From Kushneria pakistanensis (GTDB lineage: Bacteria; Pseudomonadota; Gammaproteobacteria; Pseudomonadales; Halomonadaceae), in NCBI RefSeq assembly GCF_014652795.1, contig NZ_BMZM01000002.1:372001-436000 (forward strand): DNA of 64,000 bases, given 5' to 3'. Shown piece after piece: positions 12,219-31,646 of the stretch. The number at the start of each line of letters is the position of its first letter. Positions within the stretch are counted from its first letter, which is position 1. The notes below the pieces were generated by a model. The model had not been told where the DNA came from. It saw nothing but the letters and a program-made list of their open reading frames with translations, and searched no databases. The position numbers and the translations under genes were made by a program.

Positions 12219-12284
12219 GGTCTGTTCCAAATAAGGGGCCGGCCGTGGGGGCGGGCCCGGTGAATCAAGGAAAGGCAGGCAACA

Positions 12285-13987: not shown

Positions 13988-14141
13988 GATGGCATTCCTT
14001 GACGCGGACGGGCGGGGCCGAACGGCTTGAGCGCGAGTCAGACAGCGTCGTTGAGCGACGTGCCCGTCGGTGATTGTTTCGGTAGTGGTTGGTATGGCGG
14101 CCTGTCGGGCCGCTGCACCGCGCAGGTCCAGGAGCGCAGCC

Positions 14142-15072: not shown

Positions 15073-15873
15073 TTATTCAAATGCCAGCGACACGACGCCG
15101 AACGGGCCGTAGTCGGCTTCGATGTTGCTGCCGGAGGGGCATTCGATCGGGCCGATGAACGAGCCCGACAGGATGACCTGGCCGGCCTCGATGCGCTGCC
15201 CGTAGGTCGCCATGCGACGCGCCAGCCATACGATGCCGGTGACCGGATCATCCAGCACGCCGGCCCCCAGGCCCGTGGCCATGACGTCCCCATTGCGCTT
15301 GACGATCGAGCCGACCCAGCGCAGATCCAGCGTACGCGGGTCGTGGCGCTCGGCGCCCAGCACGATGCCGGCGTTGGCGGCGTTGTCGGAGACGGTGTCA
15401 AAGATCACCCGCGTCTGACCGGTCTCGGGATCCTTTCTGACGATGCGGGTATCGAGAATCTCGATGGCCGGCGCCACAAAATCGGTGGCAGCCAGCACGT
15501 CCTCGCGTGTGACCTCGCCTTCCAGCGGCGCCTTCATGACAAAGGCGATCTCGGCCTCGATGCGCGGCTGGATGAAATGATCCTTCGAAATCACGGCGCC
15601 GGACTCAAAGCGCATGTAGTCATAGAGCACGCCGCTGTCGGGCGTGTCGATGCCGAGCGCGTCCTGCATGACGCGCGAGGTCAGACCGATCTTCCAGCCG
15701 ATGATCTCGTGCTCATGCGTTTTGCGCGCCATCTGGGCGGTCTGGATGGCGTAGGCATCATCCAGGGTCATGTCCGGATATGTTTTTGACAGCAGTCCGA
15801 TCTGCTGGCGACTTTTCTCGGCCTCAAGCAGGGCATCGGCGGCGGCGGCAATCTGATCGTCAGTCAGTGGCAT
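15073..15873 (-). CDS. hpaH: HpaH, 2-oxo-hept-4-ene-1,7-dioate hydratase
   Basis: A 266-residue hydratase of the FAH/MhpD superfamily that adds water to 2-oxohept-4-enedioate, giving the substrate for HpaI. It matches HpcG/HpaH in length and in motifs such as IGWKIGLTSRVMQ, RIEAEIAFVMKAPL (acidic metal ligands) and DTVSDNAANAGIVLG. The ATG at 15873 is chosen because GGAGG lies 9 bases upstream; it overlaps the preceding hpaG-like gene by 14 bp, implying coupled translation. It is the last gene of the hpaF operon. Confidence 0.93.
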   Translation of the reverse strand: MPLTDDQIAAAADALLEAEKSRQQIGLLSKTYPDMTLDDAYAIQTAQMARKTHEHEIIGWKIGLTSRVMQDALGIDTPDSGVLYDYMRFESGAVISKDHFIQPRIEAEIAFVMKAPLEGEVTREDVLAATDFVAPAIEILDTRIVRKDPETGQTRVIFDTVSDNAANAGIVLGAERHDPRTLDLRWVGSIVKRNGDVMATGLGAGVLDDPVTGIVWLARRMATYGQRIEAGQVILSGSFIGPIECPSGSNIEADYGPFGVVSLAFE

Positions 15874-16750
15874 GCTGCTCATCCTCCACACCGTTGGTCA
15901 GCGTGCCGATGCCGTCGGCCTCGACCTCGATTACATCACCCGGCTTGAGCCAGATCGGCGGATCAAACCGGGCGCCGGCGCCGGTGGGCGTACCGCAGAC
16001 AATCACATCGCCCGGCACCAGGGTGGTGAAGGTCGAGACGTAATTCACGATGTAGCGGAAGTCGAACATCATCCGCGAGGTGCGATCGTTCTGGCGAACT
16101 TCGCCGTTGACGCGGGTGGTCAGCTCGATGTCATCAAGCTGGTCGGCACTTTTGAACGGCACCAGCCACGGGCCGATGGCGCCGGTGGCATCGAAGTTCT
16201 TGCCTTGCGTGACGTTGAACTTGGCGTGGCGGACCCAGTCGCGAATGGTGCCTTCGTTGCACAGCGTCAGTGCGGCAATGTGCTCATAGGCCTTTTCGCG
16301 CGAAATGCGGCGACCGCCCTTGCCGATCACGATGGTGACTTCGCCTTCGTAGTCGAGCTGTTCACTCTCCGGGGGTCGCACAAGATTTTCGTTATGGCCG
16401 ACAAAGCTGCGCGGGAAGCGGATAAACAGCGACGGTTTGCTCGGGGCGGCCTGGCCGTCCTTGTACTCTTCGTTGCGCGAGGGGAAGTTGACGCCGACGC
16501 AGATCAGCTTTTCCGGGTTGGCGATCGGGATCAGCCAGGTGACGTCTTCCTCACGGTAGCTCGGGCTGCGGTCTTTGGCGGTGGTCAGCAGCTCATCGAT
16601 GGCGCCGGCCTCGATCACTTCCTTGAGCCCCTTGAAACGCGCGCCGAATTCCTGGCTCAGGTCGATGATGCCTTCATCGGTCACGACGCCGTAGCGGTCA
16701 GTGCCTTCAGCGTGAAAGGCGGCGAGACGGGGAGGCAGTGCTGTGGTCAT
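15860..16750 (-). CDS. hpaG: FAH-family decarboxylase/isomerase, single-domain HpaG-like
   Basis: A 296-residue fumarylacetoacetate-hydrolase-family enzyme. The FAH core is visible: KLICVGVNFPSRNEEY, the metal-binding DYEGEVTIVIGKGG, CNEGTIRDWVRH, FDATGAIGPWLVP and VIVCGTPTGAGARF. In the hpa pathway HpaG decarboxylates 5-oxopent-3-ene-1,2,5-tricarboxylate and then isomerises the product. The enteric protein (~429 residues) is a fusion of two FAH domains, whereas only one full domain with an N-terminal extension is present here. Position between the dioxygenase and hpaH supports the role. Whether one domain does both steps, or a second gene lies elsewhere, cannot be told from the window. Confidence 0.8.
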   Translation of the reverse strand: MTTALPPRLAAFHAEGTDRYGVVTDEGIIDLSQEFGARFKGLKEVIEAGAIDELLTTAKDRSPSYREEDVTWLIPIANPEKLICVGVNFPSRNEEYKDGQAAPSKPSLFIRFPRSFVGHNENLVRPPESEQLDYEGEVTIVIGKGGRRISREKAYEHIAALTLCNEGTIRDWVRHAKFNVTQGKNFDATGAIGPWLVPFKSADQLDDIELTTRVNGEVRQNDRTSRMMFDFRYIVNYVSTFTTLVPGDVIVCGTPTGAGARFDPPIWLKPGDVIEVEADGIGTLTNGVEDEQHATD

Positions 16751-16806: not shown

Positions 16807-17787
16807 TCAGGGCGCGATGATGGGCGTGGCGTTGAGCTGGGAGTCCACGGGCTCCAGATTTTCAAAAAGCGAACCGTGTTCGAACCAGGAGCGTGGCGCC
16901 GGGGCACCCCACAGGGTCTGGCGCTGCGGATCCTTCAGGTCCCACTTGATCGCTTCCAGATCCGGATCAACGGTCTGGTAGTCCGAGCAGTAGATCTCGA
17001 TGCGATGGCCGTCCGGATCGAGCACATAGAGGAAGAAGGCATTGGAGATGCCGTGACGGCCCGGGCCGCGCTCGATGTTACTGACATAGCCGGTGGTGGC
17101 CATCAGATCGCACAGATCAATGATGTTCAGCGGTGTCGGCACCCAGAACGCCGTGTGGTGCAGGCGCGGACCGCGGCCGTTGGTGAATGCCATGTCATGC
17201 ACGCCGCCCTTGCGATGGGTCCATGCCGCCCACAGCTTGCCGCTTTCCTCGTCCTCGGTGTATTCGGTGACGCGAAAGCCGAGCTGATTGTAGAAATCGA
17301 CCGACTTGTCCACGCTGGGCGAGAACAGGTTGAAATGGTCGATGCGCAGCGGCTTGACGCCCTTGTAGAGGGCGTACTGCTGATGGATCGGAGAGAGCCG
17401 GTCCATTTTGAAATAAAGCTCAAGAGGCACGTCAAAGCAGTCGGTGGTACGCAGCGTGCGACCCTGATAGGGACGCTCGACCCACTCGACCGGATGACCG
17501 TGCTCCTTGAACCAGTCGTGCGCCTTGTCGAGCTCCTGCTCGTCGAACACCTTGAGCGATAGCGACTTGACGGTGGCGGTGTCGCTTTTTTCCAGCACGA
17601 TGCAGTGGTGGCCGCGCTCTTCCATCGCGCGCAGATAGATGCGCTTGTCGTCTTCATCGGTGACCTGCAGACCGAGCGTGTCGACGTAAAAGTGGCGGCT
17701 TTTGGCCAGATCAGTGACGCCGAACACCACATGGCTCAGGCGAATGATGTTGAACGCTGGATAAAGGTTGGGCGTTGGAATGGGCAT
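16807..17787 (-). CDS. Type I (VOC-fold) 3,4-dihydroxyphenylacetate 2,3-dioxygenase
   Basis: A 326-residue extradiol dioxygenase built from vicinal-oxygen-chelate repeats, like Brevibacterium HPCD and Arthrobacter MndD (Fe or Mn enzymes that cleave homoprotocatechuate). Predicted metal ligands are His151 (RIDHFNLF), His210 or 211 (RLHHTAFW) and Glu264 (GHRIEIYCSDY). Two N-terminal and two C-terminal VOC modules are seen (LSHVVFGVTDLAKSRHFY; DHFNLFSPSVDKSVDFYNQLGF). The ATG at 17787 follows GGAGACAAGT; the longer frame is not needed. It lies between hpaE and the hpaG-like gene. The unrelated LigB-type HpaD at 13133-13987 is predicted to do the same step. Confidence 0.88.
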   Translation of the reverse strand: MPIPTPNLYPAFNIIRLSHVVFGVTDLAKSRHFYVDTLGLQVTDEDDKRIYLRAMEERGHHCIVLEKSDTATVKSLSLKVFDEQELDKAHDWFKEHGHPVEWVERPYQGRTLRTTDCFDVPLELYFKMDRLSPIHQQYALYKGVKPLRIDHFNLFSPSVDKSVDFYNQLGFRVTEYTEDEESGKLWAAWTHRKGGVHDMAFTNGRGPRLHHTAFWVPTPLNIIDLCDLMATTGYVSNIERGPGRHGISNAFFLYVLDPDGHRIEIYCSDYQTVDPDLEAIKWDLKDPQRQTLWGAPAPRSWFEHGSLFENLEPVDSQLNATPIIAP

Positions 17788-17846
17788 GACTTGTCTCCAT
17801 GAGATTCCGGGCAGGAGGCGCTTCCGGCCCCCTGCGGGTAGCGATA

Positions 17847-19355
17847 TCAACCGAGTTTCGGCACCTTGTGCGGCTTGCGCGGGAAGGCGACGTTGACGGT
17901 TTCCATGTAGAAGTCGAACGACCAGTCACCGCCGTCGCGGCCGATGCCGGACGCCTTCACGCCGCCAAAGGGCGATTCCAGGTGACGCACGTTCTCGGAG
18001 TTGACCCAGATCATCCCCGCTTCCAGCTCATCGGTCATGCGCATGGCGCGGTCAAGGTCGTTGGTCCACAGATAGGCGGCCAGGCCGTACTGGGTGTCAT
18101 TGGCCAGTCGCAGCGCTTCCTCGTCGTCCTTGAACGGAATGGCGGTCAGTACCGGTCCGAAGATCTCTTCCTGGGCGATCGTCATGTCGTTCGTGGCGTT
18201 GGTGAACAGCGTCGGGCGCACGAAGCAGCCTTCTTCGGCGGCCTTTTCGCCACCGGCGGCGATAGTGGCCCCCTCTTCACGCGCCTTGTCGAAGTACGAC
18301 AGCACCTTTTGTTCGTGCTCCGGGTGGATCAGCGGGCCGACCACGGTGTCCGGGTCAAGTGGATGACCGACCTTTATGCCATTGGCGACCTCCGCCACGC
18401 GGCGGGTGAATTCCTCATAGATGTTTTCGTGCACCAGAAGGCGCGAGGACGAGGTGCAGCGCTCGCCGTTGAGTGAGTAAATCATGAAGCTGGCAGCATT
18501 GACGGCGCGCTCGAGATCGGCGTCTTCGAACACGATAACCGGGTTCTTGCCGCCGAGCTCAAAGTGAAAGCGCTTCAGCGTCGGCGCGGCCTGGGCCATG
18601 ATCAGCTGGCCGGTACGGCTTTCGCCGACAAAGGCGATCGCCTTGATGCCCGGGTGTTCGGTCAGCGCCTTGCCGGCATCTTCACCCATGCCGTTGACCA
18701 GGTTCAAAACGCCTTTCGGCAGTCCGGCTTCCTCGGCGATTTCGACCAGCAGCTTGGCGGTCATCGGCGAGAATTCGGCCGGCTTGTGGACCACGGTGCA
18801 GCCCGAAGCCAGGGCAGGCGCGATCTTCCAGGTCGAGAGCATGAACGGCGTGTTCCACGGCGTGATGACGCCAATCGGGCCCAGCGGGCGCTTGGACGTC
18901 ACGTTCATCTGCGTGTCGTTGCGCAGCGCCTGACCGTCTTCGGCCTGCGGCGCCCGGTCGGCAAAGAAGCGGAAATTGGCCGCGCCGCGAATGGCCGCCT
19001 TCGACATGAAACGCAGTGACTGACCCGTATCCATGCACTCGGTAAAGGCGATCTCTTCGGCGCGGGCTTCGATGGCCTCGGCCACTCTGATCAGAATCTC
19101 GCGGCGCTCCTTGCCCGGTGTTTTGCTCCAGGTCTTGAACGCTTTTTCGGCGGCCTGTACGGCGCGGTCGATATCGCTTTTACCGCCGTGGGCGACGCTG
19201 GCCAGCGTTGAGAGATCCACCGGCGAAATGGTGTCGAAGGTCTTGCCGGAGTCGGCGGGCACCGACTCGCCATTGATATGGTTCAAAACGCCCTGGTCAC
19301 GAAAGCGCTTCAGGTATTGCTGCGCGCGGGCGATGTTGTCGTTCAACTGACTCAT
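17847..19355 (-). CDS. hpaE: HpaE, 5-carboxymethyl-2-hydroxymuconate semialdehyde dehydrogenase
   Basis: A 502-residue aldehyde dehydrogenase oxidising the ring-fission aldehyde to 5-carboxymethyl-2-hydroxymuconate with NAD+. Typical features are ITPWNTPFMLSTWKIAPALA, FVGESRTGQLIM, the Glu region FELGGKNPVIVFEDADLE, catalytic Cys in NGERCTSSSRLLVHENIYEEF, and the C-terminal SPFGGVKASGIGRDGGDWSFDFYME that is characteristic of the HpaE group. GGAGG lies 9 bases before the ATG. It follows hpaF by 28 bp. Confidence 0.95.
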   Translation of the reverse strand: MSQLNDNIARAQQYLKRFRDQGVLNHINGESVPADSGKTFDTISPVDLSTLASVAHGGKSDIDRAVQAAEKAFKTWSKTPGKERREILIRVAEAIEARAEEIAFTECMDTGQSLRFMSKAAIRGAANFRFFADRAPQAEDGQALRNDTQMNVTSKRPLGPIGVITPWNTPFMLSTWKIAPALASGCTVVHKPAEFSPMTAKLLVEIAEEAGLPKGVLNLVNGMGEDAGKALTEHPGIKAIAFVGESRTGQLIMAQAAPTLKRFHFELGGKNPVIVFEDADLERAVNAASFMIYSLNGERCTSSSRLLVHENIYEEFTRRVAEVANGIKVGHPLDPDTVVGPLIHPEHEQKVLSYFDKAREEGATIAAGGEKAAEEGCFVRPTLFTNATNDMTIAQEEIFGPVLTAIPFKDDEEALRLANDTQYGLAAYLWTNDLDRAMRMTDELEAGMIWVNSENVRHLESPFGGVKASGIGRDGGDWSFDFYMETVNVAFPRKPHKVPKLG

Positions 19356-19383: not shown

Positions 19384-19770
19384 TCACTTTCGGGACAGCC
19401 GGGCGTGGATCGGGGTGTCCTTCCAGCTCAGCTCGGCATTGATTTCTCGAATTTCCAGCGATAGCGCGAAGTGCGGGGCGGCCAGCACTTCGGCCAGCGC
19501 TGCCTGCACGGCGGCAAACAGACGATCGCCGGCCGCCTTCAGAGCGCTTTGCTCACGGCCGCTGCCAACGCTCAGCGTCATGGCCAGAAAATCGTTGTCG
19601 GGGTGGTCATCGGCCACGATGCAGTGATCGGCGGCAAAGGCCCGCACGCGAATACCGGCGCGCGGAAAGAGATCGTCTGTTGCCATGACCTCCCAGGCCG
19701 CCCGGCAGACGTCGCGCACATCCACATGCCGCTCGAGGGTGGGTGAATACTCGATATGCAGATGGGGCAT
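19384..19770 (-). CDS. hpaF: HpaF, 5-carboxymethyl-2-hydroxymuconate delta-isomerase
   Basis: A 128-residue tautomerase-superfamily isomerase. The mature protein begins with Pro after the initiator (MPHLHIEYSPTLE), the catalytic Pro1 of this superfamily, which fixes the start at 19770 (GGGAGAGCCAG upstream). Motifs such as FAADHCIVADDHPDNDFLAMTLSVGSGR fit HpaF/HpcD. It converts carboxymethyl-hydroxymuconate to the 5-oxopentene-tricarboxylate used by HpaG. It is the first gene of the main hpa operon, with a 387-bp divergent promoter region upstream. Confidence 0.92.
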   Translation of the reverse strand: MPHLHIEYSPTLERHVDVRDVCRAAWEVMATDDLFPRAGIRVRAFAADHCIVADDHPDNDFLAMTLSVGSGREQSALKAAGDRLFAAVQAALAEVLAAPHFALSLEIREINAELSWKDTPIHARLSRK

Positions 19771-19851
19771 CTGGCTCTCCCTTGAAGACACCGGATTAAA
19801 GGTGATGCCGGACACGGCGCCCTTGTTTCGATCAGGCGTGTCATCGGCTCT

Positions 19852-19873
19852 AATCATTAACATATTAACGACA
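19852..19873. promoter_or_regulatory. Palindromic operator candidate, site 1 (hpaF promoter)
   Basis: AATCATTAAC-AT-ATTAACGACA, an imperfect inverted repeat matching the perfect palindrome at 25414-25435. It lies 82 bp upstream of the hpaF start. Likely a MarR-type (HpaR) site; inferred. Confidence 0.55.
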
Positions 19874-19975
19874 CGGACAGGCGCCATGTGTCAAGCGCTA
19901 TCTTGGTCGAAGGCTTCTCGATGGCGGCATCCGATCAGAGCCGGACGTGACCCCGAAATACCCGATACCCAACAT

Positions 19976-19994
19976 ATTGTTCACAGATTAATGA
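19976..19994. promoter_or_regulatory. Shared upstream element A of the hydroxylase and P450 genes
   Basis: ATTGTTCACAGATTAATGA, identical at 16 of 19 positions to the element at 22185-22203. It lies about 165 bp upstream of the flavoprotein hydroxylase start. Confidence 0.45.
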
Positions 19995-20157
19995 GTTGGC
20001 AGCGTCAGTGGTGGGCAGCGCGACGAAGGTAGGGGGCGTATTCATGAAAAGTACAATCGAGCAAGCGTAAAACACATCCTCAATGCCTGGGGCCTTGCCC
20101 AGCATAAGACGCATGCCCGCCCTGCAGCGGCAATGTGACCATTACGAGGACAGCACC

Positions 20158-22035
20158 ATGCAGTTTCATCATTACGGCTATGTGTCAGGCGACCCGCGTC
20201 GGCAACCGGCTTCGGGCGAAGGGCTCGACCGGTGTGATGTACTGCCCGATGAGGTCGATGTCCTGATCGTGGGTACCGGGCCTGCCGGCATGATCATGGC
20301 GGCCCAGCTTGCGCAGTTCCCTCATATCCGTACCCGCATCATCGAGCGTCGGGCCGGTCGGCTCGAGATCGGCCACGCTGACGGCATTCAGGCGCGCAGC
20401 GTTGAAACCTTTCAGGCCTTCGGTTTTGCCGATCGCATCACCGCCGAGGCCTATCGCATCACCGAGATGGCGTTCTGGAAGCCGGACCCGAACCGGCCCG
20501 AGCACATCATCCGCACCGCCCGCACCCCGGATGATCCGGCCGGCATCAGCGAGTTTCCTCACCTGATCGTCAACCAGGCCCGGGTGCTCGACTATCTGGC
20601 GGAATCAGCACTCAACGGCCCGGCGCGCATCAAGCCCGACTTCGGCCATGAGTTTAAGGGGCTCGAGAGAGACGATACGCAGCCCTTCCCCCTCAGCGTG
20701 TCGCTTCGCGCGGTCGCCGGTCCTGAAGAAGGCACCGAGCGCACCGTGCGTGCCCGCTATGTGGTCGGCTGTGACGGCGCGCGCAGCGGCGTGCGCAGCG
20801 CCATCGGCTGCAGACTGGCCGGCGATCAGGCCAACCACGCCTGGGGTGTGATGGACGTGCTGGCCGTCACCGATTTTCCCGACATTCGCACCAAATGCGC
20901 CATTCAGTCCCGCTCGGGCGGCAGCATTCTGCTGATCCCGCGCGAGGGCGGGCATCTGTTTCGCATGTATGTTGATCTGGGCGAGGTGCCGGCCGACGGC
21001 AGCAGCGCCGTGCGTCATACGCCCATCGAGGCGATCATCAAAAAGGCCAACGAGATCCTGTCGCCCTACACCCTCGACGTTAAAAACGTCGCCTGGCACA
21101 GCGTCTATGAGGTGGGCCACCGGCTCACCGACCGTTTCGATGATGTCGAGGACCCGGACTCCGGGCGTCTGCCGCGGGTATTCATTACCGGGGATGCCTG
21201 CCATACCCATAGTGCCAAGGCCGGCCAGGGCATGAACGTGTCGATGCAGGACGGCTTCAATCTGGGCTGGAAGCTCGGCTACGTGCTCTCCGGTCGCAGT
21301 CCGGCGAGTCTGCTGTCGACCTATTCCGCCGAGCGCCAGGTGGTGGCCCGAAACCTGATCGATTTCGATAAACAGTGGTCGACGATGATGGCCAAACGAC
21401 CGGAAGAGTTCGAGGACCCGGGCGAGCTGGAGGCGTTCTATACCCGCACCATCGAGTTTCCGGCGGGCTTCATGACCGAATACGCCCCTTCCATGATTAC
21501 CAACGACGCCGCGCATCAGGCACTGGCCACCGGCTTCCCGGTCGGCAAGCGCTTCAAGTCGGCGTGGGTCTCGCGGGTGTGTGACGGTAACCCGCTGCAG
21601 CTCGGCCATCAGGCCCGCGCTGACGGGCGGTGGCGTCTTTATGTGTTTGCCGATGCCGCCTTTGCCGGCGAGTCGTCGGCGACACAGCGGCTGGCCGAGT
21701 GGCTGGCGCGCTCCAGCGACTCTCCGCTTAATGCCACGCTACCGGGCGGTGCATGGGTCGACTGGTTCGATATCAGGGTGATCTACCAGCAGCGCCATGA
21801 GGACGTGGCAATCATGCAGGTGCCGCGTGTGTTTATCCCGACGGTGGGGCCGTTTGCACTGCAGGATCTCGAAAACGTGTTTGGCGTGGCGCCCGATGAG
21901 GACATTTTTGTTGTCCGCGGCATCGACCGTCACGGCGCGGTGGTGGTGGTGCGTCCCGACCAGTACGTGGCCGATGTGCTGCCACTTGAGGATACCGGTC
22001 GGCTGGGAGACTTCTTCCGGCGTCTTCAGGCCTGA
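20158..22035 (+). CDS. FAD-dependent aromatic hydroxylase, MobA-like (3-hydroxybenzoate 4-monooxygenase / phenol 2-monooxygenase family)
   Basis: A 625-residue single-component flavoprotein monooxygenase. It has the N-terminal GxGxxG FAD motif (VDVLIVGTGPAGMIMAAQLA), the DG motif (ARYVVGCDGARSGVRSAIG), the GD motif (RVFITGDACHTHSAKAGQGMNVSMQDGFNLGWKL) and a C-terminal thioredoxin-like dimerisation domain (about 450-625). Overall it resembles Comamonas MobA, which hydroxylates 3-hydroxybenzoate at C4. Here, divergent from hpaF, a 3-hydroxyphenylacetate 4-hydroxylase feeding homoprotocatechuate is a reasonable alternative. The ATG at 20158 follows GAGGACAGCACC. No hpaBC-type hydroxylase is present in the window. 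Substrate assignment is inference. Confidence 0.85.
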   Translation: MQFHHYGYVSGDPRRQPASGEGLDRCDVLPDEVDVLIVGTGPAGMIMAAQLAQFPHIRTRIIERRAGRLEIGHADGIQARSVETFQAFGFADRITAEAYRITEMAFWKPDPNRPEHIIRTARTPDDPAGISEFPHLIVNQARVLDYLAESALNGPARIKPDFGHEFKGLERDDTQPFPLSVSLRAVAGPEEGTERTVRARYVVGCDGARSGVRSAIGCRLAGDQANHAWGVMDVLAVTDFPDIRTKCAIQSRSGGSILLIPREGGHLFRMYVDLGEVPADGSSAVRHTPIEAIIKKANEILSPYTLDVKNVAWHSVYEVGHRLTDRFDDVEDPDSGRLPRVFITGDACHTHSAKAGQGMNVSMQDGFNLGWKLGYVLSGRSPASLLSTYSAERQVVARNLIDFDKQWSTMMAKRPEEFEDPGELEAFYTRTIEFPAGFMTEYAPSMITNDAAHQALATGFPVGKRFKSAWVSRVCDGNPLQLGHQARADGRWRLYVFADAAFAGESSATQRLAEWLARSSDSPLNATLPGGAWVDWFDIRVIYQQRHEDVAIMQVPRVFIPTVGPFALQDLENVFGVAPDEDIFVVRGIDRHGAVVVVRPDQYVADVLPLEDTGRLGDFFRRLQA

Positions 22036-22338
22036 GACCCGGCATGCCGTTTTGTCATGACAGCGCCCTGCAATGGGGTGAAATCTCCTGAAAGGTTCAG
22101 GCCGGTGACACACTCTCGTGGCGCCTGCCTGGTCATGAAAAATGCAATCCCGAGCTGTTCAGGAACCCATATATACAAGGTCGAATTGTTCACTTGTTAA
22201 TGAAACGATAGCCTGGGCCATGATCGATTGGTGGAGGCGCTGAAGTCCCTCTGCCGCCGCATGAGTGGACCCGCGAGTATTTCAGGCGCTGGCACCTACG
22301 AAGCGCATACCCTTTTGCCATTGCCTCGTGGAGGTTGC
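22036..22338. promoter_or_regulatory. Intergenic region upstream of the P450 fusion
   Basis: 303 bp between the hydroxylase and P450 genes. It contains element B at 22185-22203 and an AT-rich stretch near 22168-22176 (ATATATACA). The frame of the P450 gene is open back to 22228 but GTGGAGG before 22339 marks the true start, so this region is taken as promoter and leader. Confidence 0.5.
22185..22203. promoter_or_regulatory. Shared upstream element B (P450 fusion promoter)
   Basis: ATTGTTCACTTGTTAATGA, 16 of 19 identical to 19976-19994. It lies 136 bp upstream of the P450 start codon. Probably a site for a common activator or repressor. Confidence 0.45.
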
Positions 22339-25300
22339 ATGAACAAGCCGCTGAACGCCCGCTCCGCTCCGGTGGCGGACTGGGTCGATATCAAAACGCT
22401 GTACGAAGACCCGTACCCGATCTATCAGCGCCTTCGTCGCGAGGGTGGCGTCCACTGGGTGCCCAGCGTCAATCGTTACCTGATCACCAGCTATGATGCG
22501 GTGATTGCCACCGAGCACGATCAGGACACCTTCTCGGCCAACGAAACGGATTCGCTTCAGATTCGCGCCATGGGGCATTCGATGCTGCGTCGCGACGACC
22601 CGGAGCACTACCGCGAACGGCGCCAGTGGCAGAGCGTGTTCAAGCCCAACGCGGTGAAAAATGTCTGGACCCGGACCTTCCATGAAAAGGGCCGCGAGCA
22701 GCTGGCCTTTCTCATCGACAAGGGCCCGGGGGCGGATCTGATCTGGGACTTTTCGGCGCCTTTCGCCGCGGAGTGTCTCAAATCGCTGCTCGGGCTCTAC
22801 AACGCCTCGGCCCAGGATCTGCAGCGCTGGTCGCAGACGCTGATCGATGCCACCGGCAACTATGCTGAAGACCCGGCAGTGTGGGCGGCCGGCAAGCGCT
22901 CGTTTGATGAGGTGGATGTCGCCCTGGACGAGATGCTCGAGTGGCATCTGCATCATCGTGACCACTCCCTGATCTCGTCGCTGCTCTCCTCGCCCGAGGA
23001 GCAGATGCCGATCGAAAAGATTCGCGCCAACATCAAGATGAGCATCGGCGGCGGTCTCAACGAGCCCCGCGACGCGCTCGGTGTGGCCGCCTGGGCGATG
23101 CTGACCCACCCCGACCAGCGTCGGGCGGTCGAGCGCGACCCGAGCCTGTGGTCGACGGTGTTTGATGAAACCATTCGCTGGATTGCGCCGATCGGGCTCT
23201 ACTCGCGCCAGACGACCAAAAAGACCGTGCTGGCCGGCGTTGAGCTGCCAAGGGGTGCGCGGCTGGGCATCTGCATTCTCTCGGCCAACCGCGACGAGTC
23301 GATCTGGGAGCGACCGGACGAGTTTGACATTCACCGGGAGGTCAAGCCGCACCTGGCCTTCAGCAAGGGCACCCATGTGTGTCTGGGCGCGCGGGCGGCA
23401 CGGGCGGAAGTCGCCGACGTGGCGATGCCGCTTTTGTTCAATCATCTCGAGGGGCTCGAGATCCATCCCGATCAAACACCCACCGTCGGCGGCTGGGTAT
23501 TTCGCGGCATGCTGTCGCTGCCGGTCACCTGGCGTGATGTCCGCCCGCTTGAGGGCAGTGCGACCTCCGTCCCCGTCAGCAACCCGGCCGCCGCGTCCGA
23601 GCGCGAGGCCGCCCCGCATGTGGCCATCGTGGGTTCGGGGCCGGCGGGCTGTTTCACGGCCAAAGAGATTCAGCGCCGCATGCCAGGGGCCCATATCGAT
23701 CTTGTTGACCGCCTGCCGGTGCCCTATGGGCTTTTGCGCTACGGCGTGGCCGGCGATCACCAGGGCACCAAGGCCGTATCGCGCCAGTTCGATCGCCTGT
23801 TTGATTCGCCAAACGTGCGCTTTGTCGGCAACACCACCATCGGCGATCAGGTCTCATTTGAGGAACTGCGCGCGAACTACGACGCCGTGGTGCTCGCCTG
23901 CGGCATGTGTGCCGATCGCCGACTCGATATTGCAGGCGAGCGGCTTGCCGGGGTGTTCGGAGCAGGCGGCATTACCCGCCGACTCAATGGTCATCCGGAC
24001 GAGACCGACACCCCGACGCTGGGCCGGCGCGTGGCGATCGTCGGCCAGGGCAACGTGGCCATCGATGTACTGCGGCTGCTGTCGATCCGCTCTTGCGATC
24101 TCGAGGGCAGCGACATTGATGATGCCGTGCATGGCGCACTGACCCGCGAGATCGACACGCTTCATGTCATCGGGCGCTCGAGTGCCGAGAAGGCCCGCTT
24201 TGATCCGGTAATGATTCGCGAGCTGGGCCGCTTTTCAAACATCGAACACCGCCTCCACGGCGTTGACCTGGAACGTGTGCCGGAAGGCAAGGATGCGCGG
24301 CTGGACGCGCTGCGTACCCTGCCAGGGGCGGGCAGCGTCGAGGTTGACGGCAGAGCTCACATGACCGTCGAGTGGTGGTTCGAGGCGGTACCCGAGCGCA
24401 TCGACGGACAGAGGCGAGTCGAAGGCATGGTGCTGCGTCACGGCGGCGAGACCTTCTCGCTCGAGGTGGACTCGGTCATTACCGCCATCGGCTTTGTGCC
24501 CGATAAGGGCGATGCCATCTCCAGAGCGCTGGCCGAGCTGCCGGATGCTGCCGAGAACGGACGGGTCGAGGCCGGGCTCTATCTGGCCGGGTGGCTGCGC
24601 CGCGGCGCCCGCGGCACGATTCCCGATCAGCGCACCGATGCGCGGGCCCTGGCCGGCGTGCTCGGCGCTGATATCGCCAGTGGTGACGTGCGCTGTACCC
24701 GCCAGGGGCTGGCGCCACACCCTGAGGCCACCGACATCGACGGCTGGCGGCGCATTGATCATGTGGAGTGCACCAGGGCCGCCTCCGGCCGGGTGCGCAC
24801 CAAGCTGTGCACGCTCAAGGCCCTGCTTGAATCAGCACGCGACAACTCGTTGAACATCGAGCGCGAAACCCGCGGCGGCGCAGGGCACGGCGATATCCCG
24901 GAAGATCTTTCGGTCAGCATTTTGTTTGGCACCGAGTCCGGCAACGCCGAGCTGGTGGCCGAAGAGCTCGAGCAGGCGCTGGACGGGCGCTGTGAGGTGG
25001 CGGTGTCGGATCTGGATGGCATTGATCCTGGAGCGCTCGACCCCGAGCGGTTCTATCTCATCGTCTGCTCGACCTACGGCGACGGTGAAGTACCAGGCAG
25101 CGCGCGCGACTTCTATCAGGCGCTGCGCGACGACGCCCCGGATCTCTCCGGCATTCGCTTTGCCAGTTTTGGACTGGGAGACAGCAGCTATGCGCGAACC
25201 TTTTTTCGCGGCGGTGAACTGCTGACCGAGGCGCTGACGGCCTGTGGGGCAACGCGCATCGGCGAGTTCGGTCGTCACGACGCCAGCGGTTCGCTTGCCG

Positions 25301-25374
25301 CCTCCGATGTCGCGCTGGACTGGGCGGAAGGCGTGCTGGCCCTGCTTGCCGAGGAGGCGTCCATGCCGGCCTGA
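22339..25374 (+). CDS. Self-sufficient cytochrome P450: P450 - adrenodoxin-reductase-type FAD reductase - flavodoxin fusion
   Basis: A 1011-residue three-part monooxygenase. Residues 1-400 are a P450: ExxR at Glu277/Arg280 and the heme loop FSKGTHVCLG at 341-350 with Cys348 as thiolate ligand. Residues 425-790 resemble adrenodoxin/FprA-type NADP+ reductases: FAD motif VGSGPAG (431-437), VDRLPVPYGLLRYGVAGDH, and NADP motif VGQGNVAIDV. Residues 858-1005 are flavodoxin-like: FMN loops GTESGNAE, STYGDGEVPGS and FGLGDSSYA. Electrons would pass NADPH-FAD-FMN-heme in one chain. The I-helix reads GGGLNEPRD (237-245), lacking the common Asp/Glu-Thr pair. The ATG follows GGAGG. No signal peptide. Context suggests hydroxylation or O-demethylation of a phenylacetate-type substrate; this is inference. 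Confidence 0.88.
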   Translation: MNKPLNARSAPVADWVDIKTLYEDPYPIYQRLRREGGVHWVPSVNRYLITSYDAVIATEHDQDTFSANETDSLQIRAMGHSMLRRDDPEHYRERRQWQSVFKPNAVKNVWTRTFHEKGREQLAFLIDKGPGADLIWDFSAPFAAECLKSLLGLYNASAQDLQRWSQTLIDATGNYAEDPAVWAAGKRSFDEVDVALDEMLEWHLHHRDHSLISSLLSSPEEQMPIEKIRANIKMSIGGGLNEPRDALGVAAWAMLTHPDQRRAVERDPSLWSTVFDETIRWIAPIGLYSRQTTKKTVLAGVELPRGARLGICILSANRDESIWERPDEFDIHREVKPHLAFSKGTHVCLGARAARAEVADVAMPLLFNHLEGLEIHPDQTPTVGGWVFRGMLSLPVTWRDVRPLEGSATSVPVSNPAAASEREAAPHVAIVGSGPAGCFTAKEIQRRMPGAHIDLVDRLPVPYGLLRYGVAGDHQGTKAVSRQFDRLFDSPNVRFVGNTTIGDQVSFEELRANYDAVVLACGMCADRRLDIAGERLAGVFGAGGITRRLNGHPDETDTPTLGRRVAIVGQGNVAIDVLRLLSIRSCDLEGSDIDDAVHGALTREIDTLHVIGRSSAEKARFDPVMIRELGRFSNIEHRLHGVDLERVPEGKDARLDALRTLPGAGSVEVDGRAHMTVEWWFEAVPERIDGQRRVEGMVLRHGGETFSLEVDSVITAIGFVPDKGDAISRALAELPDAAENGRVEAGLYLAGWLRRGARGTIPDQRTDARALAGVLGADIASGDVRCTRQGLAPHPEATDIDGWRRIDHVECTRAASGRVRTKLCTLKALLESARDNSLNIERETRGGAGHGDIPEDLSVSILFGTESGNAELVAEELEQALDGRCEVAVSDLDGIDPGALDPERFYLIVCSTYGDGEVPGSARDFYQALRDDAPDLSGIRFASFGLGDSSYARTFFRGGELLTEALTACGATRIGEFGRHDASGSLAASDVALDWAEGVLALLAEEASMPA

Positions 25375-25413
25375 GTCGACATGGTGTGATGACAATGCCT
25401 TATAACAACGTCT

Positions 25414-25435
25414 AATCATTAATGTATTAATGATT
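25414..25435. promoter_or_regulatory. Perfect palindromic operator candidate, site 2 (TRAP operon)
   Basis: AATCATTAAT-GT-ATTAATGATT: two perfect 10-bp arms around GT. It lies 45 bp upstream of the dctP-like start and is the best copy of the motif also found at 19852 and 32703. Likely a dimeric MarR-type repressor site (HpaR is the obvious candidate). Confidence 0.65.
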
Positions 25436-25479
25436 GTAATAACATGGCCGCTCCTTGGGACAGCAGCGGGATCACGACC

Positions 25480-26589
25480 ATGAACAGGGTGGGCCTTGCG
25501 ATATATCGACCGGCACTGGCAGCACTGCTCTGCCTGGCCGGTTTTTTGATCAGTACGCCTGCGCCGGCGATGACCACGCTGCGCATCGCCCATTTTCTGC
25601 CGGCAGTGGCCAACGTGCAGCGACGGGTGCTCGATCCCTGGTGTGACGAGCTTGAGGCGCGCTCCGATCATGAGATTCGCTGTCAGATCTACCCCTCGAT
25701 GCAGCTTGGCGGCATTCCTTCCCAGCTGCCCGACATGGTGCGCAACGGCGTGGTGGACATTGCCTGGACGGCGCTTGGCTATTCCGCCGGACGCTTTCCC
25801 AGAAGCGAGGCACTGGAGCTGCCCTTCATGCTGCCGGCCGGCGGCGTGGAAGGCAGCCGCATTGCGTGGGCCTTCAGTCAGGGGCCGGCGCGGGCGGATT
25901 TTGACGACTACCACCTGCTGGCCATCCAGAGCGACGGCGGCGCCGTGTTTCATACGCGCCATACCGCCCTTCACGGCATGGACGACATGACAGGGCTAAA
26001 GCTGCGTGCCCCGACGCGCATGGCCGCACGACTGATCGATTCGCTGGGCGCCTCGGCAGTGAGCATGCCGCCGGCCCAGATTGCTGACACGCTCGCCAAG
26101 GGCGTCATCGACGGTGCCTCGGCCGGCTGGGAGGTCGTGCCGCCGACCAAGCTTGATGAGGTCACCCACTATCACACCGAATCGAACGCGCATCAGGCCA
26201 CCCCGACCGTGACCGTGCTTGCCTTTTTGATGAACAGGGAAAGCTATGCGCGCCTGCCCGACAAGGCGCGTCAGGCGCTGGACAGCCTCAGCGGCGAGGC
26301 CCTGTCGCGACGCTTTGGCAAGGCCTGGGATGATGCCATCGCGCCGGTCAGAAAACGCCTTGAAAGTGATCCCGACCACACCGTCATTGCCCTTGATGAT
26401 GACGCCTACCGCGCCATGCGTGACGCCTCCAGGGGCGTTACCGAGGCGTGGATGGCCTCGCGCGAGCGGGGCGTCGATCGCGCGGCGCTGGTGCGCTCGC
26501 TTGAGGCGATGGTCGAGTCAATGGCCCCGGCGCTGCATCAGACGTCGGCGCCGGCCGGGCAGAACATTTCCAGGAGAGCGACACCATGA
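25480..26589 (+). CDS. dctP: TRAP transporter solute-binding protein (DctP family)
   Basis: A 369-residue periplasmic binding protein with an N-terminal signal peptide (MNRVGLAIYRPALAALLCLAGFLISTPAPA minus the first residues of cleavage). DctP features include LRIAHFLPAVANVQRRVLDPW, MVRNGVVDIAWTALGYSAGRFP, and the ligand-Arg region GLKLRAPTRMAARLIDSLGA, where the Arg typically binds a carboxylate. The ATG at 25480 begins the signal peptide; an earlier in-frame ATG at 25444 lacks a ribosome site. It leads an operon with dctQ and dctM-like genes. The ligand is probably an aromatic carboxylate given the flanking genes. Confidence 0.88.
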   Translation: MNRVGLAIYRPALAALLCLAGFLISTPAPAMTTLRIAHFLPAVANVQRRVLDPWCDELEARSDHEIRCQIYPSMQLGGIPSQLPDMVRNGVVDIAWTALGYSAGRFPRSEALELPFMLPAGGVEGSRIAWAFSQGPARADFDDYHLLAIQSDGGAVFHTRHTALHGMDDMTGLKLRAPTRMAARLIDSLGASAVSMPPAQIADTLAKGVIDGASAGWEVVPPTKLDEVTHYHTESNAHQATPTVTVLAFLMNRESYARLPDKARQALDSLSGEALSRRFGKAWDDAIAPVRKRLESDPDHTVIALDDDAYRAMRDASRGVTEAWMASRERGVDRAALVRSLEAMVESMAPALHQTSAPAGQNISRRATP

Positions 26590-27089
26590 AGACACTGCTG
26601 CAGCGGCTGGCCGCCGGGCTGGCGCTGATAGGGGGCGTTCTGCTGCTGGCGGCCATCGCCCTGTCGCTGGCCTCAATGCTGGGTCGGCGGCTCTGGACGA
26701 CGCCCATCACGGGCGACATGGAGCTTTTGCAGATGACCATGGCCGTGGCGGTGGCCTGTTTTCTGCCGCTGTGTGAAATCAACGACCGCCACATCCGCGT
26801 CGATATTATCGCCACCTTCCTGCCGCAAGGCGCCAATCGCATCCTGCTGTCGCTCTCGCATCTGACGCTGGCCGTGATCTGTGCGCTGCTGACCTGGCGC
26901 ACGGCCATGCTGGCGATGGATAGCCTCACATATGACGCCCAGAGCGTGCAGCTTGGTCTGAGCGAGGGGCTCTTTCAGATGGCCATGCTGCCCGGCATCG
27001 CCCTGATGGGGCTTTGTGCGCTCTATCAGGGCGTGTATCGACTCACCCATGACGAGGTGCCCGCCATGATCGAAGAGGAGGGATTTTAA
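26586..27089 (+). CDS. dctQ: TRAP transporter small permease (DctQ family)
   Basis: A 167-residue four-helix membrane protein. It shows the DctQ pattern of TM1 (LAAGLALIGGVLLLAAIALSLASM), GDMELLQMTMAVAVACFLPLCEINDRHIRVD, and two further helices. Its ATG overlaps the dctP stop by 4 bases (ATGA). It bridges the binding protein and the large permease. Confidence 0.88.
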   Translation: MKTLLQRLAAGLALIGGVLLLAAIALSLASMLGRRLWTTPITGDMELLQMTMAVAVACFLPLCEINDRHIRVDIIATFLPQGANRILLSLSHLTLAVICALLTWRTAMLAMDSLTYDAQSVQLGLSEGLFQMAMLPGIALMGLCALYQGVYRLTHDEVPAMIEEEGF

Positions 27090-28405
27090 TGGACGGACTC
27101 GCAATGGGGGCGGTGGCCCTTGGGGCCATGCTGGTGCTGCTGGGGTGTCGTCTACATGTGGGCGTGGGCATGCTGCTGGCCGGTGCCCTGTGTTATCTGC
27201 TGGTCTATGGCGGCGATATGCACGCGCTGCTGTATACCCTCAACAACCTGGTCTACGCGCGCTTTTCAAGCTATGACCTGGCCGTGATTCCCATCTTCGT
27301 GCTGATGGGGCAGTTCGCGATCCACGGCGGGCTCTCCTCGACGCTCTTTCAGGCCAGCGCCAGATGGATCGGCCACTGGCGGGGCGGACTTGCGATGTCG
27401 GCGGCCGGTGCCTGTGCCGGCTTTGGCGCCATCTGCGGCTCGTCGCTGGCCACCGCCACCACCATGAGTCAGGTGGCGCTGCCCGAACTCGAGCGCCATC
27501 GCTACAGCAAACGCCTGGCGACCGGCACCATTGCCGCAGCGGGCACGCTGGGCATCCTGATTCCGCCATCGGTACCCCTGATCGTCTACGCCGTACTGAC
27601 GCAGACCTCGATTGCGACCCTGTTTCTGGCCGCGGTGCTGCCGGGGCTGCTGGCGGTGGCAGGCTATTTTGCGGTGATCCGTCTGCTGGCGGTGCGCACC
27701 ATGAGCAGCATCGAAGCCTCGCCACGCTATTCGTGGTCCGAGCGACGGGCCAGTCTGCGCGAGATCGCCCCGGTGCTGGTGATCTTTGTCACTGTGATCT
27801 TCGGGCTCTACGGCGGCTGGGCAAACCTGACCGAGGCGGCCTCGCTCGGGGCCGCGGCCTGCGGGGTCTATGCCGTGTGGCGCGGCATGCGCGGGGCCGG
27901 GCTCTATAAAAGCCTGGTGGGGACGGCGGAGGCGAGCGCCATGATCTATCTGGTGGTGATCGGTGCCGATCTTTTGAACAGCGGGCTGGCGCTGGGGCAG
28001 ATGCCGGCAGCGCTTGCCGACTGGGTACTGGGCAGTGGTCTGACGCCGCTGGCGGTGCTGCTGGTGATTCTTGTGATCTATCTGGTGCTGGGCTGCATGA
28101 TGGATTCGCTGTCGATGATTCTGCTGACCATCCCGATCTTCTTTCCCATCATCATGCAGCTGGAGCTTTTCGGCCTGACCGGGCCGGAAAAGGCGATCTG
28201 GTTCGGGATCGTGGCGCTGATGGTGGTGGAGATCGGGCTGATTACCCCGCCAATGGGAATGAATCTTTTCATCGTGCAGAAATACAGCCACAACACGTCG
28301 CTGGCCACGGTCAGTCGCGGCATCGTGCCGTTTCTCGGTGCCGACATGGTACGCATCGCCATTATCGTTTTTGTACCGGCGCTGTCGCTGGTGTGGCTGG
28401 GGTAG
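27089..28405 (+). CDS. dctM: TRAP transporter large permease (DctM family)
   Basis: A 438-residue, about 12-TM ion-coupled permease. Family segments include the PIFVLMGQFAIHGGLSSTLFQ region, SAAGACAGFGAICGSSLATATTMSQVALPE, TGTIAAAGTLGILIPPSVPLIVYAVLT, LGCMMDSLSMILLTIPIFFPI and EIGLITPPMGMNLFIVQ, all hallmarks of DctM. Start and dctQ stop overlap as TAATG. A terminator follows at 28463. Confidence 0.92.
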   Translation: MDGLAMGAVALGAMLVLLGCRLHVGVGMLLAGALCYLLVYGGDMHALLYTLNNLVYARFSSYDLAVIPIFVLMGQFAIHGGLSSTLFQASARWIGHWRGGLAMSAAGACAGFGAICGSSLATATTMSQVALPELERHRYSKRLATGTIAAAGTLGILIPPSVPLIVYAVLTQTSIATLFLAAVLPGLLAVAGYFAVIRLLAVRTMSSIEASPRYSWSERRASLREIAPVLVIFVTVIFGLYGGWANLTEAASLGAAACGVYAVWRGMRGAGLYKSLVGTAEASAMIYLVVIGADLLNSGLALGQMPAALADWVLGSGLTPLAVLLVILVIYLVLGCMMDSLSMILLTIPIFFPIIMQLELFGLTGPEKAIWFGIVALMVVEIGLITPPMGMNLFIVQKYSHNTSLATVSRGIVPFLGADMVRIAIIVFVPALSLVWLG

Positions 28406-30161: not shown

Positions 30162-31646
30162 ATGAGTCAGACCACCACCGCCCAGGGCGTGCAGGATTTC
30201 TTCAAGCGGGCCACCGGCTCGTTCATCGACGGCACCTTTCTCGAAGAAGGCAAGCCCTTTGACGTGCTGGACCCTTCCAGCGGTCAGGCGCTGACCACGC
30301 TGCGTGAAGGGGATCGCGCCCTGGCCGACCGGGCGATTGCGCTGACCAAGGAGAGCTTCGAGGATGGCCGCTGGTCCGGACTGACGCCGGCCGCACGCGA
30401 GCGCATCCTGCTGCGCTTTGCCGATCTGGTCGAGGCGCACGCCGAAGAGTTGGCCCAGATCGAAACCCTCAACCAGGGCAAGTCGATCAACCTCGCCCGC
30501 GGCGTTGACGTGGGCTTTTCAATCGATTTCATCCGCTACATGGCCGGCTGGACCACCAAGCTCGAGGGCAACACCCGCGACGTTTCCATCGGCATGCCGG
30601 AAGGCGCAAGGTTCAATGTCTACACCCTGCGCCAGCCGCTGGGCGTGGTAGGGGCCATTGTGCCGTGGAACTTCCCGATGATGATTGCGCTGTGGAAGCT
30701 GGTGCCGGCGCTGGCGGCGGGCTGCACGGTGGTATTGAAGCCCGCCTCGGAAACGCCCTTGAGCGTGCTGCGTCTGGCGGAGCTGGCGCTGGAAGCCGGT
30801 GTGCCGAAGGGCGTGTTCAACGTGGTACTGGGTTCGGGCTCGGTGGTCGGTACGCGTCTGGCCGAGCATCCGGACGTCAAAAAGGTCACCTTCACCGGCA
30901 GCACCGCGGTCGGCAAGCAGGTCGGCCACGCCGCCGTGGAGCACATGGCGCACTTCTCGCTGGAGCTGGGCGGCAAGAACCCGATGCTGGTGCTGGAAGA
31001 TGCCGACGTTGAAAAGGCCGTCAATGGCGCGCTGATGGGCGGGCTGTTCAATCAGGGGCAGGTGTGCGCGGCAGCCTCGCGCTTTTATGTGCATCGCAGC
31101 CTTCATGACGCCTTCTGCGAGCGGCTGGCCCAGGCTGTGGACACCATGCAGGCCGGCCCCGGCATGGACCCGCAGGCGCAGGTCAATCCGCTGGTTTCCA
31201 AACGCCAGCAGGACAGCGTGCGCGGCTATCTCGATCGGGCGCGCGAGCAGGGTGCCACCATTCATGTGGGCAACGACGTGCCCACGGAAGGCTTCTATGT
31301 GTCGCCGGCCATCATCAGCGGCGCCCATCACGATATGGAAGTTGCGCGCGAAGAGGTCTTCGGGCCGGTGCTGACCGTCATTCCGTTTGATGACGAGGAA
31401 GAAGCGCTGCGCATGGTCAATGACAGTGACCTGGGGCTGGCGGCCAGTCTCTGGACCAACAATCTGTCAAAGGCCATGGCCCTGACGCCGCGTATCGAGG
31501 CCGGCACCGTATGGGTCAATACCCACGTAACGCTTGATCCGGCCATGCCGTTTGGCGGTCTCAAGATGTCCGGGCTTGGCAAGGAGTTCGGCCCTGAAGC
31601 GGTCAACGCCTACACCGAGCTCAAGTCGGTGTGCATCGCCTACTGA
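30162..31646 (+). CDS. Aldehyde dehydrogenase, phenylacetaldehyde dehydrogenase (FeaB)-like
   Basis: A 494-residue NAD+-dependent ALDH. Landmarks: VGAIVPWNFPMMIALWKLVPALAAGC, FTGSTAVGKQ, Glu region LELGGKNPMLVLEDADVE, catalytic Cys in NQGQVCAAASRFYVH, and PFGGLKMSGLGKEFGPEAVNAYTE. It most resembles aromatic aldehyde dehydrogenases such as FeaB. It is convergent with a FeaR-like regulator. It would oxidise phenylacetaldehyde or 4-hydroxyphenylacetaldehyde, produced by amine oxidation, to the arylacetate. The ATG at 30162 follows AGGAGATTGTC. Confidence 0.85.
   Translation: MSQTTTAQGVQDFFKRATGSFIDGTFLEEGKPFDVLDPSSGQALTTLREGDRALADRAIALTKESFEDGRWSGLTPAARERILLRFADLVEAHAEELAQIETLNQGKSINLARGVDVGFSIDFIRYMAGWTTKLEGNTRDVSIGMPEGARFNVYTLRQPLGVVGAIVPWNFPMMIALWKLVPALAAGCTVVLKPASETPLSVLRLAELALEAGVPKGVFNVVLGSGSVVGTRLAEHPDVKKVTFTGSTAVGKQVGHAAVEHMAHFSLELGGKNPMLVLEDADVEKAVNGALMGGLFNQGQVCAAASRFYVHRSLHDAFCERLAQAVDTMQAGPGMDPQAQVNPLVSKRQQDSVRGYLDRAREQGATIHVGNDVPTEGFYVSPAIISGAHHDMEVAREEVFGPVLTVIPFDDEEEALRMVNDSDLGLAASLWTNNLSKAMALTPRIEAGTVWVNTHVTLDPAMPFGGLKMSGLGKEFGPEAVNAYTELKSVCIAY

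Follow-up and report, generated by a model that had tools for sequence, protein, structure and literature searches.

A P450, an FAD reductase, and a flavodoxin in one open frame

The window analyzed here, a 64,000-nucleotide stretch of Kushneria pakistanensis DNA (contig NZ_BMZM01000002.1, positions 372,001 to 436,000), contains a gene that encodes a cytochrome P450, a flavin adenine dinucleotide (FAD) reductase of the adrenodoxin reductase type, and a flavodoxin as a single chain. This fusion gene starts with ATG and runs unbroken for 1,011 codons plus a stop. Its parts, in window positions, are as follows.

22330..22334, + strand: GGAGG, probable ribosome-binding site for the ATG at 22339 (direct sequence reading)
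22339..25374, + strand: whole fusion gene, P450, adrenodoxin-reductase-type FAD reductase, and flavodoxin, 1,011 amino acids (open frame; three Pfam domains; 19 full-length copies including the window's own)
22339..23535, + strand: P450 domain, residues 1 to 399 (alignments; 58.6% identity to PDB 6g71 over 389 residues)
23050..23073, + strand: I-helix GGLNEPRD, within the P450 domain
23380..23382, + strand: heme ligand Cys348, within the heme loop
23536..23613, + strand: linker 1, residues 400 to 425, variable in sequence and length (alignment; fast evolution)
23614..24846, + strand: FAD reductase domain, residues 426 to 836, adrenodoxin reductase/FprA family (matches to 1cjc, 1lqt, and 2c7g; motifs)
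24847..24903, + strand: linker 2, residues 837 to 855 (alignment; fast evolution)
24904..25371, + strand: flavodoxin domain, residues 856 to 1003, plus a short tail (Flavodoxin_1; best match cindoxin 4oxx, 101 bits)

Domains were assigned with Pfam at its cut-offs, by phmmer against solved structures, and by reading motifs in the translation. Pfam retrieved p450, Pyr_redox_2, and Flavodoxin_1 in this order, each over its cut-off. The original prediction, made from the letters alone, had proposed such a domain search; the P450, the GxGxxG FAD reductase with its VGQGNVA motif, and the flavodoxin with three flavin mononucleotide (FMN) loops were all recovered in the order and at the coordinates that it gave.

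The P450 domain shows the features of the superfamily, with a cysteine heme loop (AFSKGTHVCLGA, containing Cys348), an ExxR motif at residues 277 to 280, and the overall P450 profile. It aligns with 6g71 over residues 9 to 398 with 517.7 bits (phmmer). By convention, P450s sharing more than 40% identity belong to one family and those sharing 55% to one subfamily; identity of 58.6% to 6g71 would place the domain in CYP1232A, provided that 6g71 is CYP1232A24. The reductase domain presents the three motifs of the adrenodoxin reductase/FprA family (GxGxxG, GxGNVA, and a C-terminal GW(x)(K/R)RG) as an FAD site, GSGPAG (residues 432 to 437, 23632-23649), a pyridine-nucleotide site, GQGNVA (residues 569 to 574, 24043-24060), and the adrenodoxin reductase signature GWLRRG (residues 751 to 756). 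The only distinct solved sequences matched at an E value of ≤1e-20 were adrenodoxin reductase 1cjc and FprA 1lqt and 2c7g. The flavodoxin is of the cindoxin type, with cindoxin as its best match and FMN loops TESGN (residues 865 to 869, 24931-24945), STYGDG (residues 911 to 916, 25069-25086), and GLGDSSY (residues 945 to 951, 25171-25191).

Distribution, selection, and descent of the fusion

The full-length fusion is present in 19 genomes from two phyla, with no internal stop in any. The search for other proteins with this domain order, suggested beforehand, thus found company for the window's gene: in the window's family, the halomonads, the whole fusion occurs in 9 of 275 genomes from five genera, the other eight copies being 81 to 84% identical, and in the actinobacterial order that contains a Leucobacter metagenome bin, it occurs in 10 of 396 genomes (an even draw from a larger group) with 58 to 62% identity. 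A scan of named genomes with two short peptide patterns gave eight full-length fusions among nine confirmed loci, all within the genomes already counted. The carriers were Larsenimonas suaedae, L. salina, Kushneria phyllosphaerae, Terasakiispira papahanaumokuakeensis, three Halomonas strains, and the Leucobacter bin. This list is incomplete, since the patterns recovered only 1 of the 10 actinobacterial fusions.

Wider sampling at an E value of ≤1e-100 retrieved no fusion beyond the window's own when 369 genomes were drawn evenly from the class to which the window belongs, and an even draw of 396 genomes of the actinobacterial phylum gave two matches, the Leucobacter bin and one P450-only match, and no further fusion. 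None of 32 pattern-matching stretches in viral contigs codes for a relative of the fusion. None of 24 partly matching phage records reaches 80% query coverage, the best among the matches listed having 46% coverage and 28% identity, and none of 232 partly matching plasmid records reaches 80% coverage. With an actinobacterial fusion as the query, one plasmid record was matched at 94% coverage and 33% identity, and it holds three separate genes.

Selection was assessed by pairwise NG86 ratios of nonsynonymous to synonymous substitution rates (dN/dS) between the window's gene and seven of the eight other known gammaproteobacterial copies, plus one actinobacterial copy. Against the seven, dN/dS was 0.065 to 0.115 for the P450, 0.13 to 0.20 for the reductase, and 0.11 to 0.13 for the flavodoxin, whereas the linkers (26 and 19 residues, few codons each) gave 0.22 to 0.97 in the 12 of 14 values that could be computed. 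Against the actinobacterial copy (L031), the domains ranged from 0.27 to 0.35, and linker 1 reached 1.15. The three domains are under purifying selection, while both linkers evolve faster and the frame never breaks. The fusion gene is genuine: because 19 genomes in two phyla keep a continuous frame, it is neither a chance frame nor a frameshift artefact, and the intact genes together with the dN/dS pattern rule out an assembly error as well. The stop or frameshift between domains that the original prediction had named as its refutation is absent from all 19.

Trees were built for each domain from 37 chosen loci, and length cut-offs removed no row. In each tree, all 19 fusions fall together on one side of a branch, with support of 82/98 for the P450 (left unstarred by the program), 100/100 for the reductase, and 98/99 for the flavodoxin. 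Several of the separate genes sit on long branches, which drew a warning from the program. This fits one fusion event followed by transfer between the phyla. In the P450 and reductase trees, the halomonad copies are nested among those of Actinobacteria; the flavodoxin tree, by contrast, has a starred group of actinobacterial copies and none of halomonad copies. The transfer was probably out of Actinobacteria, judging from these topologies.

Separate genes in the order P450, FAD reductase, and flavodoxin occur in Rhodococcus pyridinivorans and in a halomonad, so an operon of this kind could have fused through loss of its stops. CYP1232-like P450s do not always come with a flavodoxin, since two such P450s on plasmids (L074 and L075, 46% identical, the closest whose surroundings were examined) adjoin genes for a 2Fe-2S ferredoxin and an FAD oxidoreductase. 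Around five other separate relatives (L080 to L084, 38 to 54% identical), tblastn at an E value of ≤1e-8 found no such reductase or flavodoxin within about 8 kb.

Homoprotocatechuate genes and the predicted reaction

The fusion gene starts 303 bases behind a flavoprotein gene, pheH, whose product is closest to 3-hydroxybenzoate hydroxylase 2dkh, and lies beside a cluster of homoprotocatechuate (3,4-dihydroxyphenylacetate) degradation genes.

10767..12230, − strand: succinate-semialdehyde dehydrogenase (SSADH), last pathway step (NF008415, 840.1 bits, over cut-off)
12285..13088, − strand: HpaI aldolase (TIGR02311, 422 bits, over cut-off)
13133..14155, − strand: second, unrelated homoprotocatechuate 2,3-dioxygenase, LigB fold, HpaD_Fe (TIGR02298, 428.3 bits, over cut-off; PF02900)
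15073..15891, − strand: HpaH (TIGR02312, 355.6 bits, barely over the cut-off of 351.5)
15860..16750, − strand: HpaG-like protein of the fumarylacetoacetate hydrolase family (TIGR02303, 183 bits, under the cut-off of 276.4)
16807..17790, − strand: HpaD, 3,4-dihydroxyphenylacetate 2,3-dioxygenase, VOC type (TIGR02295, 424.2 bits, over cut-off, scanned as 16807-17850)
17847..19355, − strand: HpaE (TIGR02299, 766.9 bits, over cut-off)
19384..19773, − strand: HpaF, 5-carboxymethyl-2-hydroxymuconate isomerase (PF02962)
20155..22035, + strand: PheH, phenol 2-monooxygenase/3-hydroxybenzoate hydroxylase-type flavoprotein (NF006144, 995 bits against a cut-off of 560; 2dkh, 650 bits)
25477..28405, + strand: TRAP transporter DctP-DctQ-DctM, DctP open reading frame listed from 25444 (PF03480, PF06808; DctQ by position only)
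30165..31646, + strand: aldehyde dehydrogenase nearest phenylacetaldehyde dehydrogenases (best model NF045735, 621.1 bits, under the cut-off of 850)

The hpa cluster also includes an AraC regulator, and a porin-like gene, named by eye and with no family match, follows the TRAP genes. Six of the eight halomonad relatives keep the hpa genes, PheH, the fusion, the porin-like gene, the aldehyde dehydrogenase, and AraC regulators, and five of these six keep the TRAP genes too. The two remaining relatives (L030 and L073) have the fusion away from the hpa genes, and both genomes still have HpaD and PheH. At 2 of the 10 actinobacterial loci (L071 and L072), where the fusion is 57 to 58% identical, it has HpaD, HpaE, an HpaG-like gene, and PheH no more than about 8 kb away. 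A gene from one LysR-type cluster adjoins the fusion at nine of these loci, and one from an MFS-type cluster lies within the examined stretch at seven; one member of each cluster is named by Pfam.

HpaD (TIGR02295) is found in 14 of the 275 family genomes: 8 of the 9 fusion carriers have it, compared with 6 of the 266 other genomes (Fisher P = 3.6e-11 by genome and 0.0065 by genus, where relatedness inflates the association less). It is also present in all 10 actinobacterial fusion genomes, giving 18 of 19 overall, and PheH is present in 19 of 19. HpaB, by which the pathway is usually entered, is missing from all nine halomonad fusion genomes.

Taken together, the fusion is probably a natural single-chain "class III" P450, with a CYP1232-type heme domain and its own reductase and flavodoxin, that O-demethylates homovanillate or methoxyphenylacetates with NAD(P)H. 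NAD(P)H would reduce the FAD of the reductase domain, and single electrons would pass to the FMN of the flavodoxin domain, which on its flexible linker would shuttle to the proximal face of the heme. There, O2 would be activated and an aryl methoxy group on a phenylacetic acid hydroxylated, and the hemiacetal would break down to a phenol and formaldehyde. Homovanillate, a likely substrate, would yield homoprotocatechuate directly. 3- or 4-Methoxyphenylacetate, likewise candidates, would yield hydroxyphenylacetate, and we propose the adjacent PheH as the partner that makes homoprotocatechuate from such monohydroxyphenylacetates. HpaD, HpaE, HpaF, HpaG, HpaH, HpaI, and SSADH would then bring the ring into central metabolism.

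An O-demethylase that feeds homoprotocatechuate is the simplest account because 3,4-dihydroxyphenylacetate is the substrate of HpaD and hpaD is nearby. The phenylacetate substrate guessed in the original prediction gains support from the adjoining pathway genes. The closest solved structure, 6g71, is taken to be CYP1232A24 of Arthrobacter, an enzyme that turns homovanillate into 3,4-dihydroxyphenylacetate, and so favors O-demethylation over hydroxylation of the ring; the kinship of the P450 and its gene context both point to an arylacetate O-demethylase. Four presumed substrate-contact segments, fixed before counting, are identical to 6g71 at 54 of 73 positions compared with 228 of 390 overall, a value reached by 117 of 20,000 random placements; two further presumed segments outside this sum are identical at 15 of 19 and 12 of 21 positions. 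In addition, VanAB of Rhodococcus ruber R1 failed to degrade homovanillate or 3-methoxyphenylacetate (PMC9867520), and these compounds may therefore require another enzyme.

Several observations weigh against this assignment. One of the four contact segments (8 of 15 identical) is less conserved than the P450 as a whole, and the I-helix GLNEPRD is common to separate relatives whose substrate is not established, so that it is no proof of O-demethylation. The fusion does not adjoin hpa genes in two of the eight halomonad relatives and at 8 of the 10 actinobacterial loci, and one halomonad fusion genome (G030) lacks HpaD and has a LigB-type dioxygenase instead (at L028). The counts of HpaD in Actinobacteria, and of PheH in both groups, come from fusion genomes only. 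HpaB is present in 3 of the 10 actinobacterial fusion genomes. As for the redox part, the arginines of GRR in adrenodoxin reductase and FprA bind the 2′-phosphate of NADPH; the alignment shows GRS at residues 612 to 614 of the fusion, which leaves the preference between NADPH and NADH uncertain, although GRR was not counted as family-defining. Finally, the AlphaFold model of the full-length chain, made with nine fusion sequences (mean pLDDT 48.5, pTM 0.35), is too poor to reveal the packing of the domains.

We consider it unlikely that the same architecture serves a ring hydroxylase of hydroxyphenylacetates, for example converting 4-hydroxyphenylacetate to homoprotocatechuate in place of a missing HpaBC. 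HpaB was found in none of the nine halomonad fusion genomes, and a tyramine oxidase subunit B-type gene nearby could mean that 4-hydroxyphenylacetate is produced. The self-sufficient CYP116B enzymes OhpA and CYP116B234, which resemble the proposed role of the fusion in acting on a phenylacetate, hydroxylate 2-hydroxyphenylacetate (PMC8449657 and PMC11889516), but their product is homogentisate, which is not the substrate of HpaD. PheH, found in all the fusion genomes, is a better candidate for hydroxyphenylacetate hydroxylation, and the closest solved P450 and aromatic O-demethylase entries among the next matches favor O-demethylation.

Less probable again is a substrate that precedes the acid, a methoxylated alkaloid or phenethylamine as in the degradation of papaverine, with the hpa genes only finishing the route. 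Besides the tyramine oxidase-like gene, the window holds the aldehyde dehydrogenase at 30165-31646, and CYP1232A24 and CYP1232F1 are part of papaverine metabolism (PMC9687028). Against this, the TRAP transporter and the HpaD cluster suit small acids, and the CYP1232 enzymes of papaverine metabolism are reported to act at the acid stage. That the fusion is incidental and redox inefficient, with separate partners serving the P450, is very improbable: two other stretches of the genome match the flavodoxin domain (36 to 38%), and artificial flavodoxin-Fpr fusions vary in efficiency with domain order (PMC5575160), but both redox domains retain their cofactor motifs and a dN/dS of 0.11 to 0.20 against the seven gammaproteobacterial copies, in a frame still open in 19 genomes.

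Some features of the neighborhood stand apart from the O-demethylase assignment. Two unrelated homoprotocatechuate 2,3-dioxygenases, the LigB-fold HpaD_Fe (13133-14155) and the VOC-type HpaD (16807-17790), lie in one cluster; within the examined stretches of six relatives, L024, L025, and L026 have both, L027 and L029 the VOC type only, and L028 the LigB type only, as if one type displaces the other. The tyramine oxidase subunit B-type protein (35691-36842, − strand; NF004848, 702 bits, cut-off 362) is encoded downstream of the fusion, as is an FAD oxidoreductase-like protein (33805-35094, − strand), named by eye and with no NCBIfam match at 1e-40. Genes resembling both also adjoin the fusion at L030, and an amine-to-arylacetate route may feed the homoprotocatechuate pathway. 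Another AraC regulator gene (31753-32691, − strand) is the only one of 18 window genes tested, the fusion included, that is still beside the fusion at L030 (12173-13117, − strand). Its retention there without hpa genes means that it may regulate the fusion, and no homologue was found in the stretch around the L073 fusion. In the actinobacterial order, a separate CYP1232-like P450 (48% identical) at L083 (8094-15740) has a PheH homologue (69%) no more than about 5 kb away, so the pairing of P450 and PheH either predates the fusion or does not need it. A scan of 19700-25600 gave one promoter-like site, equal to the chance expectation. It also gave 13 terminator-like sites where chance would give 3.2, but 10 of these fall within the coding regions of PheH or the fusion, and neither kind of site was used.

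Relation to known P450 systems

The P450cin system (class III) follows the electron path predicted for the fusion, from NADPH through an FAD reductase and an FMN flavodoxin to the P450 (PMC9687028). Its cindoxin is the nearest solved structure to the flavodoxin domain of the fusion, but the system consists of three proteins, whereas the fusion is one open frame. P450cin belongs to another P450 family and has cineole as its substrate. The assignment to class III is therefore by domain content only: the FAD reductase and FMN flavodoxin are present, and the three separate polypeptides of the class are not. CYP1232A24 (taken to be 6g71, with 58.6% identity to the P450 domain) and CYP1232F1 of Arthrobacter have the same kind of redox partners, being placed in a proposed cluster with a flavodoxin and a flavodoxin reductase and given a role in papaverine metabolism; as PMC9687028 describes them, the components are separate.

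In the class VI system of Rhodococcus DN22 and Gordonia KTR9, for which we take the DN22 genes annotated as FAD-dependent oxidoreductase and cytochrome P450 to be XplB and XplA, the separate FAD reductase of DN22 is 43% identical to the reductase domain of the fusion. The next gene begins with a flavodoxin-like stretch, 41% identical to the flavodoxin of the fusion, and its P450 part gave no match to the fusion P450 at an E value of ≤1e-10. XplA has an N-terminal flavodoxin and its reductase in a separate gene; the fusion carries its reductase within the chain and is not a member of class VI.

CYP102 (class VIII), CYP116B (class VII), and an enzyme of Paraburkholderia terrae KU-64 are, like the fusion, self-sufficient single chains. 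Their reductase parts differ, with a diflavin module of the cytochrome P450 reductase (CPR) type in CYP102, a phthalate reductase with 2Fe-2S ferredoxin in CYP116B (PMC11173547 and PMC9687028), and, in the KU-64 ferredoxin-FAD-P450 enzyme, N-terminal ferredoxin and FAD domains that are biphenyl dioxygenase-like (PMC9687028). For none of the three do these papers describe a flavodoxin together with a reductase of the adrenodoxin type. Class VII was rejected for the fusion since no Pfam domain of a phthalate-oxygenase-type reductase or 2Fe-2S ferredoxin was found at an E value of ≤0.01, and class VIII since its FAD module is of the Pyr_redox_2/adrenodoxin reductase type and placed before the flavodoxin, not a CPR-type diflavin module with an FNR fold.

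Other O-demethylases are more distant. The guaiacol O-demethylase GcoA is a second-tier relative of the P450 domain (5ncb, 136.5 bits, against 517.7 for 6g71); it is CYP255A, and its partner GcoB is an iron-sulfur flavoprotein. The Glu-Pro pair of the I-helix also occurs in 6ycj, an "aromatic O-demethylase" entry, by alignment. VanAB vanillate O-demethylases carry out the same kind of reaction on methoxybenzoates and, unlike the P450 fusion, are Rieske iron enzymes.

PMC11173547 lists P450 classes I to X, with a separate reductase and flavodoxin in class III, a flavodoxin-only fusion in class VI, and other reductases in classes VII and VIII; a P450 fused to both an adrenodoxin-type reductase and a flavodoxin is absent from that list. 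No natural single chain of this order was found among the matches listed in the open-access literature, a scope that mostly leaves subscription papers aside, and the view that the layout is not a recognized P450 class is in line with both results, which stop short of proof. An artificial fusion of P450, adrenodoxin reductase, and adrenodoxin appears in a reference list. The parts are known and the chemistry probably is; the single-chain combination was not found described, and the subscription literature could hold it. Whether these proteins form a distinct, unnamed class of self-sufficient P450s, a fused class III chain of single origin, probably in Actinobacteria, that moved to the halomonads with or into the homoprotocatechuate pathway as a dedicated homovanillate/methoxyphenylacetate O-demethylase, is in our judgment evenly balanced.

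Self-sufficient P450s are valued because one protein is enough and no partners have to be supplied, and CYP102 and CYP116B account for most of the research. The fusion would be a third natural solution, built from adrenodoxin reductase and flavodoxin folds with the reductase before the flavodoxin, and its linker design has persisted through evolution in two phyla. When Fpr and a flavodoxin were fused artificially, the chain in which the reductase came first was less active than the one in the opposite order (PMC5575160), but Fpr has a different reductase fold from the adrenodoxin-type domain of the window's fusion. The gene is a candidate for O-demethylating phenylacetates that derive from lignin and phenylethanoids, a step that it makes testable.

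Further sets of separate P450, adrenodoxin-type reductase, and flavodoxin genes, with P450s 23 to 27% alike, were seen at L008 (275-3283), L059, L060, L062, and L078, the P450 gene being divergent in L059, L060, and L062. With these sets, class III systems appear more widespread than one would gather from the few cases studied so far. In the window's family, other P450 frames of about 795 (L018) and 832 residues (L019) suggest further self-sufficient P450s.

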